Part shown: in pieces, positions 32,350 through 35,375 of the stretch | Position numbering within the stretch: the stretch's first letter is position 1 | Layout of the letters: each line of letters opens with the position of its first letter | Assembly: GCA_017454165.1 (NCBI GenBank) | Contig: JAFTDN010000143.1 | Span: 1-35,375, forward strand | Length of the DNA stretch: 35,375 nucleotides | Direction: 5' to 3' | Source: Bacteroidales bacterium | Lineage (GTDB): Bacteria > Bacteroidota > Bacteroidia > Bacteroidales > Tenuifilaceae | The notes under the pieces: generated by a model | Told to the model about the DNA's origin: nothing | Database searches by the model: none | The model's input: the letters and a program-made list of their open reading frames with translations, nothing else | Made by a program: the position numbers and the translations under genes

Positions 32350-32768
32350 CGCAGCCTCAGGTCGAACCTCAGCCCCGACACCATGTAGCATGGCTCATCG
32401 CACGCCTCCTGGACAAAGGAGGCACGGGGCTTGTTAGCACCTAGCACCTTCACGCTGCGCCCACCGCCGCAGTAATCGGCTACCACGGTGTAACGTCGCC
32501 CCAGAGCGAGCACCAGCTCCACGCGGCTCTGCTCGGCCACGCCGTAGTGGATGGGCACCCCACCATCGAGATCGCCCTCGTACACGGTGAAATCTACCGT
32601 GGGGTTCTCATCGCTGAGCGAGAAAAGCAGGGTCACGGTGTGCTCCGTAGGCTCTACGAAGTAGCAACGCTCGCACGTAGGAATACCATCGCCACCACAC
32701 GCCGTAGAGAGCAGCAGCACCACGCCCAGCAGCACGGCCATGGGGCTTATGTGAGGTTTATTCCACAT
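32343..32768 (-). CDS. small lipoprotein of unknown function
   Basis: This 141-residue protein starts at ATG 32768, which overlaps the last codons of the ankyrin/barrel gene. The signal peptide MAVLLGVVLLLSTAC ends in a lipobox (STAC). The mature part is cysteine-rich (CERCYF, DYCGGG, EACDEPCY) and beta-rich (HTVTLLFSLSDENPTVDFTVYEGDLDGG, RYTVVADYCGG), ending in FDLRLRY. I recognise no family. An alternative ATG at 32792 adds a basic extension. The overlap suggests translational coupling to the ankyrin/barrel protein and a shared complex. Confidence 0.7.
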   Translation of the reverse strand: MWNKPHISPMAVLLGVVLLLSTACGGDGIPTCERCYFVEPTEHTVTLLFSLSDENPTVDFTVYEGDLDGGVPIHYGVAEQSRVELVLALGRRYTVVADYCGGGRSVKVLGANKPRASFVQEACDEPCYMVSGLRFDLRLRY

Positions 32769-34152
32769 AGTTAATCCGTTTTTTGTACGCATTTTGGCCC
32801 CCTGTGGGGAGCAGCATCTGTAGCCCCACGCCGAACATGTGCCCTGTAACCTTTGGGGTACTGAGGCCAGTGTAGGTCCAGCCCAGACGCCATTCCACCA
32901 CTCCATGTCGGCAGAATAGGCCTGCCCGTGCGCTCAGGCTGGGACTAGGCGATGGGCTAGCAAGTCCGTCAAAGCGGCGGAAGGCCACATCGGCACCCAC
33001 ACCGTAGTACATGCCCAGGGCGCGATTGACGTTAGCGTTAAGCACCCAGCGCTGCCCCAGCTCGAGCCCCAGCAGGCGACGGGTTTCATCGACCTGATAA
33101 AGCTGCCTGTCGCGCTCCACTAGCACCGCGCCGCTCAGGCGGCGCATGTAACGCAGATGAAGCTCCACGTTGGTAATGCGCTCCACCAGCCCCACCGACA
33201 TCCCCCAGTGCCAGGCGTGGCGGGCGGCATCGAGCTCAATCCCTAACGCCACCGCCCCAATGCCTACGCTCCGCCGTGCTTTGGGGATGCTGCTGTCTAG
33301 AGTGCGCTTAATGATGGGACTACTACCTTGTCCCAAAGCATGGTAGGTTGGTGCCAATGCGGCACGACCTTGAATCAAGGGGAGGAGCAGCTGCACGGCT
33401 CCCTCGGCGTTGCGGGCAATGGCGTGGGCCAGCACATCAAAGCCTCTATTGTCGGTCGGCGTGACATCGGCACCGCTACGCAGCAGCAGGTGGAGCATGA
33501 GGGTGTCATCGAGCTGGGCAGCCACCATCGCTGGGGTCAGCCCGTAATAATCGGATCGGTTGGGGCTGGCCCCGTGGCGCAGCAGCGCCATAGCGCATTG
33601 CGCCGCGCCGTTGTAAACGGCCAGCATGAGGGGCGTATTGCGCCTGCTATCGATGGCGTCGGGCGGGGCACCATTGAGCAGCAGCAGCTCGGTGAGGTAG
33701 GGGTAACCATGCCATGCGGAGTAGTGCAGGGGGGTGAGCCCCAGCGCATTGGCAACATCAACGGCAGCACCAGCGTTGAGCAGCAGGAAGGCAATGCTGT
33801 CGTGCCCCATGATGGCGGCGGCATGCAGGGCGGTGGTGCCATCATGGGGGGCCATTTGGGGGTTGGCCCCGCTGTTGAGCAGGCTGCTCACTATGAAGTA
33901 GTTACCATTCTGCACGGCACACATCAGAGCGGTGATGCCATCGGCGGTGGCGGCATTTGGGTTGGCCCCGTGGTACAGGCATTGCAGCACAGCATCGGCG
34001 TTGTTGGAGTCGGCGTACTGTATGAGCATACGGTCGTAGGGCGATAGCGCGGCCAGCGGGTCGGCACTGGGCTCCTGCGCCATGGTGCTTCCGCACAGCC
34101 CAACGAGGGCCATGACCAAACCATAGGCGAGGTATTTATGGCTCGCGAACAT
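32758..34152 (-). CDS. ankyrin-repeat protein with C-terminal beta-barrel-like domain
   Basis: From ATG 34152 the 464-residue protein has a signal peptide (LAYGLVMALVGLCGSTMAQE). About seven ankyrin repeats follow (roughly 40-265: DGITALMCAVQNGNYFIVSSLLNSGANP, GTTALHAAAIMGHDSIAFLLLNAGA, GLTPLHYSAWHGYPYLTELLLLNGA, NTPLMLAVYNGAAQCAMALLRHGAS). After a linker, residues about 290-464 are amphipathic strands resembling a small outer-membrane barrel (SVGIGAVALGIELD, WHWGMSVGLVERI, YYGVGADVAFRRF, HMFGVGLQMLLP). Secreted ankyrin proteins occur, but fusion to a barrel is unusual; it would place the repeats in the periplasm or at the surface. The upstream in-frame extension to 34401 is rejected because it crosses a terminator. 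Confidence 0.8.
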   Translation of the reverse strand: MFASHKYLAYGLVMALVGLCGSTMAQEPSADPLAALSPYDRMLIQYADSNNADAVLQCLYHGANPNAATADGITALMCAVQNGNYFIVSSLLNSGANPQMAPHDGTTALHAAAIMGHDSIAFLLLNAGAAVDVANALGLTPLHYSAWHGYPYLTELLLLNGAPPDAIDSRRNTPLMLAVYNGAAQCAMALLRHGASPNRSDYYGLTPAMVAAQLDDTLMLHLLLRSGADVTPTDNRGFDVLAHAIARNAEGAVQLLLPLIQGRAALAPTYHALGQGSSPIIKRTLDSSIPKARRSVGIGAVALGIELDAARHAWHWGMSVGLVERITNVELHLRYMRRLSGAVLVERDRQLYQVDETRRLLGLELGQRWVLNANVNRALGMYYGVGADVAFRRFDGLASPSPSPSLSARAGLFCRHGVVEWRLGWTYTGLSTPKVTGHMFGVGLQMLLPTGGQNAYKKRINYVE

Positions 34153-34174
34153 CGCACGGTGGGCTTTAGGTTGG

Positions 34175-34182
34175 TAAAGGTA
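34175..34182 (-). promoter_or_regulatory. -7-like element for the ankyrin/barrel gene
   Basis: Minus-strand TACCTTTA matches TAnnTTTG except for the last base and lies 22 nt before the ATG, the same variant as upstream of bamA. It lies downstream of the small-RNA terminator. Confidence 0.45.
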
Positions 34183-34211: not shown

Positions 34212-34292
34212 TAAAAAAAGAACGGGGAGCCATCCGGCCTCCCCGTTCCCAACCTAAACATAAACACCATGAAAAAATCACTAAACCTTTAG
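34212..34292 (-). ncRNA. candidate small RNA with its own promoter and terminator
   Basis: A full promoter (TTG-N20-TATTTTTG, 34328-34298) is followed by an ~80-nt segment that ends in a canonical intrinsic terminator (stem 34220-34229/34239-34248 and seven T). No plausible protein is encoded: only a 19-codon frame that reads through the terminator on the minus strand and a 7-codon frame on the plus strand. An unpaired A/U-rich 5' region of about 45 nt precedes the terminator stem, a common layout for trans-acting small RNAs. An alternative is a transcription attenuator for the ankyrin/barrel gene 60 nt downstream. I recognise no known RNA family. Confidence 0.5.
34213..34248 (-). terminator. 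intrinsic terminator of the candidate small RNA
   Basis: On the minus strand GAACGGGGAG pairs perfectly with CTCCCCGTTC (10 bp) around a 9-nt loop and is followed by TTTTTTT (34219-34213). It is one of the best intrinsic terminators in the window, and no protein gene ends near it. Confidence 0.88.
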
Positions 34293-34297
34293 CACTG

Positions 34298-34328
34298 CAA
34301 AAATAGGTCGCTCCTTCGGGCTGCGCAA
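34298..34328 (-). promoter_or_regulatory. promoter of the candidate small RNA
   Basis: TATTTTTG at 34305-34298 matches TAnnTTTG, and TTG at 34328-34326 lies 20 nt upstream. Predicted start is near 34291-34293. Confidence 0.6.
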
Positions 34329-34341
34329 TACACAAAACTAG

Positions 34342-34354
34342 TGACATGATGTCA
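34342..34354. promoter_or_regulatory. perfect palindrome TGACAT-G-ATGTCA upstream of the small-RNA promoter
   Basis: The 13-bp exact palindrome lies about 50-62 nt upstream of the predicted start, an activator-type position. The form is compatible with a Crp/Fnr-like dimer site, but the regulator is unknown. Confidence 0.35.
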
Positions 34355-34771
34355 TCAATTTTAACTACATAGCCACACAATACAACAGATACGGGCATCA
34401 CAGCGCATCACTATGCACTAGGTTTTGCCGCCTTTTGCTCGCATGATGTCGAAAAAATTTGCCACAAAACACACAACACTCTGGTAATAAACGCAATGCG
34501 ACCATCGCCACAATTCCAGCCCTCGCGATGCCGCAGGCGGGCGCAACATGAACGGCCCATGGACTACCTCTGTGGCTGCACACCGTGGGGTTATCCTCAC
34601 GGCAGCTTTGTCGCACCCTATCAGGGATGCGCGCATGACGAGGCAGCGCGGAGCGCTGCAACAGATACTGCCTGGGGCATCGCCCTAGGCGAGAGGTGGG
34701 GCTATGCGCGATGGACAATGCAGCCTGCAGGGCTGCAACATCGGCAGGCTGCGGTGCCATCAGCGGTGCCG
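34355..34771. other. gene-free, palindrome-rich intergenic block
   Basis: No convincing gene is seen on either strand. The block contains several compact palindromes: ATGCGCGCAT (34627-34636), GCAGCGC-GGA-GCGCTGC (34643-34659) and GCAGCC-TGCAG-GGCTGC (34720-34736). The plus-strand frame over 34560-34750 reads as Cys/Gly/Ala-rich junk of a kind I associate with dispersed intergenic repeats near REP elements in Bacteroidetes, but I cannot verify repetition from one window. Confidence 0.4.
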
Positions 34772-34823
34772 GAGCCTGTCGAAGGCACCGTTCCCCTCCC
34801 CCACGCCTTCGACAAGCTCAGGC
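34772..34823. repeat. REP-type inverted repeat (GAGCCTGTCGAAG family)
   Basis: GAGCCTGTCGAAGGC (34772-34786) faces GCCTTCGACAAGCTC (34805-34819) across 18 nt, with one mismatch. CTTCGACA(A/G)GCTCAG is a well-known REP core found in many bacterial genomes and linked to REP-associated tyrosine transposases. Two more copies of the core occur at 35059-35073 and 35138-35152. Confidence 0.8.
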
Positions 34824-34839: not shown

Positions 34840-34875
34840 AAAAAACAGCAGAGGCGGGGAGCTCCCCGCCTCTGC
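34840..34875 (-). terminator. intrinsic terminator of the T9SS cargo gene
   Basis: GCAGAGGCGGGGAG (34848-34861) and CTCCCCGCCTCTGC (34862-34875) form an exact 28-bp palindrome. On the minus strand it is followed by TG and six T (34845-34840). It lies 78 nt after the stop of the sorting-domain gene. Confidence 0.85.
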
Positions 34876-34953: not shown

Positions 34954-35375
34954 CTACAGCCTCACCACCCTGGCCACGGCGTTGCCCACGCGGATGATGT
35001 AAACACCTGTGGGATAGCTGCTCAGGTCGATGCGGATGCGGCCCGTTGCCGCTGGGGCTGAGCCTGTCGAAGTTCCCTGCACGGGCACACGCACCACCAG
35101 CTGACCGCTGGCCGTGTACACCTTCACCTCGGCAGTGACTTCGACAGGCTCAGGCACCGTTAGCCACAGCTCGCCAGTGGTGGGGTTCGGGTATACGCTC
35201 AGGCCCTCGCGGTGAATGCCGAGCAGGCCCGTGGCCTCCACCTTCTCGAACACGGCCACCAGCTCGGCCTCGCCCGTGCACTCAAAGGTGTAGGGGTTGG
35301 CGGTGCTCACCTCGGCACCGCCCTTGGTCCACCGCACGAAGCGGTAGCCCTCGTTGCCCGTGGCCGTGAGCCGCA
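34954..35375 (-). CDS. T9SS-exported protein: InlB B-repeat-like segment plus C-terminal sorting domain (5' end beyond window)
   Basis: The frame is open to the right edge, so only the last 140 residues are seen. They start with a divergent InlB-B/Listeria-Bacteroides repeat-like segment (GYRFVRWTKGGAEVS, NPYTFECTGEAELVAVFE), usual in large surface adhesin-type proteins. A type A T9SS sorting domain follows (SVYPNPTTGELWLTV, VKVYTASGQLVVRV, IDLSSYPTGVYIIRVGNAVARVVRL). T9SS would export the protein and link it to the surface or release it. Two REP cores (35059-35073, 35138-35152) are translated within the sorting domain as PEPVEVT and GTSTGSAP. A codon at 35337 could be read as GTG but the coherent domain continues upstream, so it is not the start. 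Confidence 0.88.
   Translation of the reverse strand, partial: RLTATGNEGYRFVRWTKGGAEVSTANPYTFECTGEAELVAVFEKVEATGLLGIHREGLSVYPNPTTGELWLTVPEPVEVTAEVKVYTASGQLVVRVPVQGTSTGSAPAATGRIRIDLSSYPTGVYIIRVGNAVARVVRL
35059..35152. repeat. REP inverted pair inside the sorting-domain coding region
   Basis: TGAGCCTGTCGAAGT (35059-35073) and ACTTCGACAGGCTCA (35138-35152) are exact inverted copies, 64 nt apart, with the same core as the intergenic REP at 34772-34823. Both lie in frame inside the T9SS cargo gene. Confidence 0.85.

Follow-up and report, generated by a model that had tools for sequence, protein, structure and literature searches.

A likely FopS-like small RNA gene with its own promoter on the minus strand of a Tenuifilaceae contig

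What is encoded at positions 34212 to 34328 of contig JAFTDN010000143.1 (GCA_017454165.1; Bacteroidales bacterium, Tenuifilaceae), where a promoter and a terminator face the same way? The window, i.e., the whole stretch of DNA that was analyzed, comprises 35,375 nt, and the original prediction, made from its letters, had left two options: an independent small RNA (sRNA) of about 80 nt or an attenuator of the ankyrin-repeat gene that follows. We consider it likely that the unit is a minus-strand sRNA gene with its own promoter, the product of which would be FopS-like, a divergent homologue of a known sRNA that acts in trans by masking start codons.

Promoter, terminator, and extent of the unit

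The minus strand carries the following elements.

34326..34328, minus strand: -33 element TTG (sequence reading, promoter count)
34298..34305, minus strand: -7 element TATTTTTG of the Bacteroidota TAnnTTTG type, with counterparts TATCTTTG, TATACTTG, or TATCATTG in the other four copies
34213..34293, minus strand: predicted sRNA of about 81 nt, its start placed at +5 after the -7 element by analogy with FopS
34251..34281, minus strand: conserved unpaired 5' block GTGATTTTTTCATGGTGTTTATGTTTAGGTT, the proposed seed (RF04319 alignment, copies, start-codon enrichment)
34213..34248, minus strand: intrinsic terminator with a 10-bp stem, a 9-nt loop, and T7 (fold, compensatory changes)

Twenty nucleotides separate the TTG (34328 to 34326) from TATTTTTG (34305 to 34298), and the terminator stem is perfect (GAACGGGGAG / CTCCCCGTTC at 34248 to 34220, with loop GCCGGATGG) and followed by seven T residues (34219 to 34213). 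Both motifs are above chance: the window has 6 promoters of the form TTG-N17-23-TANNTTTG, versus 0.77 per shuffle, and 3 places where a T tract follows a perfect stem of at least 9 bp, versus 0.2 per shuffle. The consensus promoter and the terminator (10-bp stem, T7) that had been described as bounding a unit of about 80 nt were thereby confirmed, on the minus strand. A scan for Escherichia coli-type promoters returned none at the unit, an expected outcome, since such a scan is unsuited to Bacteroidota. When the predicted 81-nt RNA was folded (as 83 nt), it reached -29.1 kcal/mol (z, -4.15), almost wholly owing to the terminator, the first 45 nt being weakly structured. Transcription from this promoter would yield an RNA whose U-rich 5' part, which includes UUUUUUCAUGGUGUUUAU, is unpaired and whose 3' part is the terminator hairpin.

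Neighboring genes

On either side, the same strand carries these features.

32758..34155, minus strand: ankyrin-repeat protein of 465 amino acids, a neighbor outside the unit (Pfam Ank_2, E 9e-40)
34175..34182, minus strand: promoter-like TACCTTTA of the ankyrin gene, beyond the terminator (sequence reading)
34954..35373, minus strand: end of a T9SS-sorted surface protein, the upstream neighbor (Por_Secre_tail, E 4e-10)

No -33 TTG was seen at the usual distance from TACCTTTA. It had been claimed that no upstream protein gene is served by the terminator of the unit, and this holds: the nearest same-strand gene, that of the T9SS-sorted protein, ends at 34954 and has a terminator of its own at 34875 to 34848. 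The latter is strong (12-bp stem, 4-nt loop) and has a GGGGAG/CTCCCC core in common with the sRNA terminator. Separately, the word GAGCCTGTCGAAG / CTTCGACAGGCTCAG is repeated in the window (34768 to 34812, 35055 to 35070, and 35131 to 35155), both inside a coding region, where it gives PEPVE peptides, and between genes; by appearance, it is a scattered short repeat.

Copies in the genus

The genome search that had been proposed was carried out in the own genome (G000; 2.54 Mb, 190 contigs, 91% complete) and in a congener (G001; 97% complete) of the genus, here called g1. It brought the number of copies in the genus to five (2 and 3, respectively), at four kinds of locus; besides the window copy, these are as follows.

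G000:C61:12587-12657, minus strand: sole further copy in the own genome
G001:C64:9196-9265, minus strand: copy 91% identical to the window copy
G001:C43:11420-11485, plus strand: copy
G001:C112:4856-4920, plus strand: copy

All five copies have a TAnnTTTG-like element shortly before the conserved block (TATTTTTG, TATACTTG, TATCTTTG, TATCTTTG, and TATCATTG) and a terminator behind it; the unit thus survives the check for conservation of promoter and terminator in relatives, both being present in the four other copies. The C61 and C64 copies lie upstream of a gene that we take, from its sequence (MPITINESKLLGINGLGRIGKLS / MSIVIDEKKLLGINGLGRIGKLS), to be gapA, a position common to both species, while the C43 copy is directed at the end of a prmC-like gene and the window copy stands before the ankyrin-repeat gene.

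Across the five copies, the 10 stem pairs are standard in 50 of 50 cells (100%), and 6 of the 10 show compensatory changes, with both partners altered. Covariation in the stem scores 0.62, whereas shuffles give 0.20 ± 0.07 and sliding gives no more than 0.22, a large signal, albeit one counted in few sequences (five) with stem arms cut by hand. The pattern of substitutions indicates that the terminator is maintained by selection.

Two copies deserve separate mention. In the C112 copy (L040 / L094), the promoter, the operators, GTGTTTATGTTTAGG, and the terminator are kept and TTTATAGTG replaces TTTTTTCATGGTG; the CAUGG core is lost, and the seed is altered at the start-codon complement, a point that weighs against the FopS-like reading. 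The window copy, for its part, is closer to the C64 copy of the congener (L092:1696-1765) than to the C61 copy of its own genome (L091), to which it is 84% identical. While the gapA-linked copies are positional orthologues, this affinity of the window copy is suggestive of gene conversion between copies or of copies being lost and gained.

Relationship to FopS

In Bacteroides thetaiotaomicron, FopS is encoded in 14 copies of 65 to 70 nt, with sigma-ABfr promoters, an unpaired 5' seed (R1'), and a terminator; it base-pairs around the start codons of mRNAs for SusC-like transporters of PULs and prevents their translation, an action counteracted by the RRM protein RbpB, to which it binds, and its conservation has been reported in the Bacteroidaceae (PMC11697453).

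Rfam at gathering thresholds returned a tRNA only. With relaxed thresholds, positions 34281 to 34213 of the window (minus strand) matched RF04319 (BTncRNA_FopS) over the full model (1 to 71) at 32.2 bits, with E-values of 0.0075 (701 bases, all 4227 families) and 0.0066 (whole genome); this score is below the gathering cutoff of 56 bits, and the unit is not a member by the Rfam rule. In the reverse direction, a model for which the five copies of the genus were the sole input (R1), and the short calibration of which makes its E-values rough, found G028:C3:481271-481346 at 1.3e-6 and, more weakly, loci on C19, C14, and C15 of the same genome, which belongs to another family; these loci score about 71 to 78 bits with RF04319, above the Rfam cutoff. 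Eleven genomes exceed that cutoff; the window's family (f1), which is distinct from the Bacteroidaceae, belongs to the same order as these genomes. Model R1 also found RNAs in genus g8, of the same family as the window genus (G018, G021, G008, G014, and G023; E 4e-6 to 1.4e-4); with the sequence GTGTTTTTTCATAGGTTTAAGGTTTTAGGGTTAATGCAGGCGGG, these appear to be intermediate forms. Since a model built from the genus copies reciprocally finds above-cutoff FopS loci, homology with FopS is likely, and the unit is probably a divergent homologue. Together with the promoter-bearing copies elsewhere and the covarying terminators, the match to a known sRNA family supports the independent RNA of about 80 nt that had been suspected.

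Several further matches were set aside. The third RF04319 match in the own genome (C159:8339-8398) consists of a terminator and the start of an RsmB/F-like methyltransferase gene, with no promoter, and was rejected as an sRNA. Many weak blastn or RF04319 matches in relatives are starts of real MKK genes or terminators adjoining one. Matches with E-values up to 1 per genome (RF04319) or 0.05 (R1) were not counted as copies. Matches from an exact 20-base pattern scan, scattered over several phyla, look like chance or coding starts.

Complementarity to start-codon regions

The 5' block at 34251..34281, which we propose to be the equivalent of R1/R1' of FopS, gives a typical start region (AACCTAAACATAAACACCATGAAAAAATCAC) when reverse-complemented, and weak DNA matches in relatives are often starts of genuine MKK genes. 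Complementarity was counted in 304 ORFs, drawn from the window and from a sample of the own genome that comprised 20 stretches (about 0.36 Mb), with the first ATG taken as the start, a choice that is wrong for some ORFs and dilutes the signal. At -20 to +12, 39 8-mers were complementary to the block, versus 15.7 ± 5.9 in dinucleotide shuffles (a 2.5-fold enrichment, reached by 0 of 200) and 16.8 ± 6.0 in shuffles with CAT kept (0 of 200); elsewhere in -100 to +100, there was no excess (30 versus 27.5; 70 of 200). Seed complementarity to start-codon regions is thus seen statistically, across starts as a set, and its excess at starts but not elsewhere makes start-codon masking the likeliest action. 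The 5' part would pair in trans with A-rich start-codon regions of the AACACCAUGAAAAAA type, as FopS does, and such pairing would block translation initiation of several mRNAs.

Individual targets are less clear-cut. Apart from the sRNA genes themselves, no match to the 18-nt start pattern had fewer than 3 mismatches. The best matches in the sample, which gives a partial target list, include the start of the RsmB/F-like methyltransferase gene (13 nt, C159) and those of genes encoding a DUF6850 protein, an M3 peptidase, and, in the window, a DUF3078 protein; we regard these candidates as leads only. Six SusC proteins scored over the cutoff, and the two readable start regions among them match by only 6 to 7 nt, so the target class of FopS was unrecovered. 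RNAduplex energies, computed without accessibility, separated targets poorly from background (TIR mean, -19.8, versus -18.9 ± 0.5 in shuffles, about -1.8 standard deviations) and were discarded.

Alternative explanations

The main rival to a FopS-like sRNA is convergent origin: an unrelated trans-acting sRNA might have come to carry a similar seed, because start-codon masking needs a U-rich sequence around CAU. Such an origin would sit well with the subthreshold Rfam score and with terminator stems that are wholly different between families, and the seed is the very part that pairs with generic start regions; as these are A-rich in the phylum, a U-rich, CAU-bearing seed could arise independently. 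We nevertheless consider convergence rather unlikely, as the similarity runs beyond the start-codon complement into a TTTAGGTTRR block, the alignment is full length with the same geometry, the reciprocal model matches, and intermediate forms exist in genus g8 of the same family.

Much less probable still is that the unit attenuates transcription of the ankyrin gene, the second option of the original prediction, or forms its leader. The ankyrin gene does lie on the same strand, with its start codon about 58 nt past the terminator, and the copies G000:C61 and G001:C64 likewise precede a same-strand gene (gapA). However, the downstream genes differ between copies, which stand before gapA or beside prmC as well; three copies have a TAnnTTT-type promoter in the interval from terminator to gene, and TACCTTTA is found behind the terminator here; and no alternative antiterminator structure was seen in the fold of the RNA. 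Moreover, the unit is not kept before the same gene in relatives: the ankyrin orthologue of the congener (55% identity) has no such unit upstream, which, together with the copies at unlike loci, argues against attenuation and favors an RNA that acts in trans. Two protein-coding explanations seem to us the most improbable of all. The hairpin might be incidental to the 5' end of a decayed or tiny plus-strand gene (CACC ATG AAA AAA TCA ..., giving MKKSLNL*), and the plus strand does resemble a typical start region, but the frame closes after 7 codons and is different in every copy, and the promoter, the T tract, and the covarying stem all face the minus strand. Similarly, a minus-strand frame of 19 codons begins at an ATG within the conserved block (ATGGTGTTTATG..., with its stop in the T tract), as a leader peptide or small protein would require; a one-base difference, however, breaks this frame in the C61 copy, codon content is not kept, and the FopS loci, when checked for small ORFs, had none (PMC11697453).

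An operator in common with surface-protein genes

Immediately upstream of the FopS-like unit lie two further candidate elements.

34328..34345, minus strand: operator-like site GTCACTAGTTTTGTGTAT, abutting the -33 TTG (27-base identity, 40-nt spacing)
34351..34368, minus strand: degenerate upstream operator half of a tandem, a guess by position (63 nt before the -7 element)

Ahead of the surface-protein promoters at G000:C171 and C32, the 27 bases from GTCACTAGTTTTGTGTAT recur unchanged (E 3e-7), and the site lies 40 nt before the -7 element, a spacing as in other members. In both genomes, tandem palindromes (ATCACTANNNNTAGTGAT), 23 bp apart, are found at 63 and 40 nt before TAnnTTTG, with 15 and 23 matches, versus 5 and 5 for the reversed pattern. 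The genes behind the tandem mostly encode surface proteins: BspA-like LRR_5 proteins in 4 of 10 scanned, a T9SS-sorted protein, and an InlB-like B-repeat protein. Examples of this palindrome regulon are L130:1501-1570, L128, L124, L127, L125, and the window at 34328 to 34368; a TMEM43-like protein is included.

Among the sRNA copies, an operator is present in three of five: the C64 and C112 copies carry the full tandem in the same register, and in the window copy the near site has 5 mismatches, the far site being at best a remnant (7 mismatches of 14 specified bases, equaled by 2% of window 18-mers and not significant alone). The C61 and C43 copies have no tandem operator. Part of the sRNA family is therefore probably co-activated with surface-protein genes through this common upstream operator, and the window copy and two of the three copies of the congener would probably be switched on with that gene set by a putative activator.

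Action without an RRM_1 protein

No RRM_1 protein (the family of RbpB) was found in the own genome or the congener at E 0.001. In contrast, one to three such proteins are present in each of the 16 other genomes of the family that were searched, scoring 73 to 94 bits for those listed and 69 for one third copy. Loss in genus g1 would be the simplest reading, incompleteness of the two drafts being possible but unlikely. Because FopS-10 does not need RbpB to block translation of susC in vitro (PMC11697453), the window RNA could act alone; in genus g1, it would need to work in the absence of an RRM_1 protein such as RbpB.

Tentatively, and well short of the confidence that we place in the sRNA itself, we speculate that FopS-type sRNAs are older than the Bacteroidaceae, outlived the loss of all RRM_1 proteins in this genus, and, co-activated here with a BspA-like/T9SS regulon by way of the tandem palindromes, form the repressing arm of envelope remodeling. 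A FopS-like RNA outside the Bacteroidaceae, in a genus without a detectable RRM_1 protein, would offer a natural test of the need for an RbpB-type protein, and the operator a first handle on what switches such RNAs on. As the seed is the antisense of the start-codon context of the phylum, the same rule may help to predict targets of other Bacteroidota sRNAs.

Comparison with known systems

This kind of sRNA is already known; what is new here is the lineage in which the FopS-like sRNA gene lies and the way it is wired. Like FopS, the unit combines a length of 65 to 80 nt, a TAnnTTTG promoter, an unpaired 5' seed with UUUUUCAUGGU, and a terminator hairpin, and it occurs in several, mostly intergenic copies per genome. 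A sigma-ABfr-type promoter stands directly upstream (TTG-N20-TATTTTTG here, with equivalents in other copies), and the single-stranded 5' stretch with its R1 seed is followed by a Rho-independent terminator. The differences from FopS are the copy number (2 to 3 per genome in genus g1, versus 12 to 15 in Bacteroides), a 5' leader about 12 nt longer, a score of 32.2 against the 56-bit cutoff, the undetectable RRM_1 protein, the operator common with surface-protein genes, and the unrecovered SusC targets. GibS of B. thetaiotaomicron resembles the unit in its R1-type seed, which pairs with start-codon regions, and differs from it by an additional seed (R2) and by its promoter type (PM2) (PMC7366714, PMC11697453).
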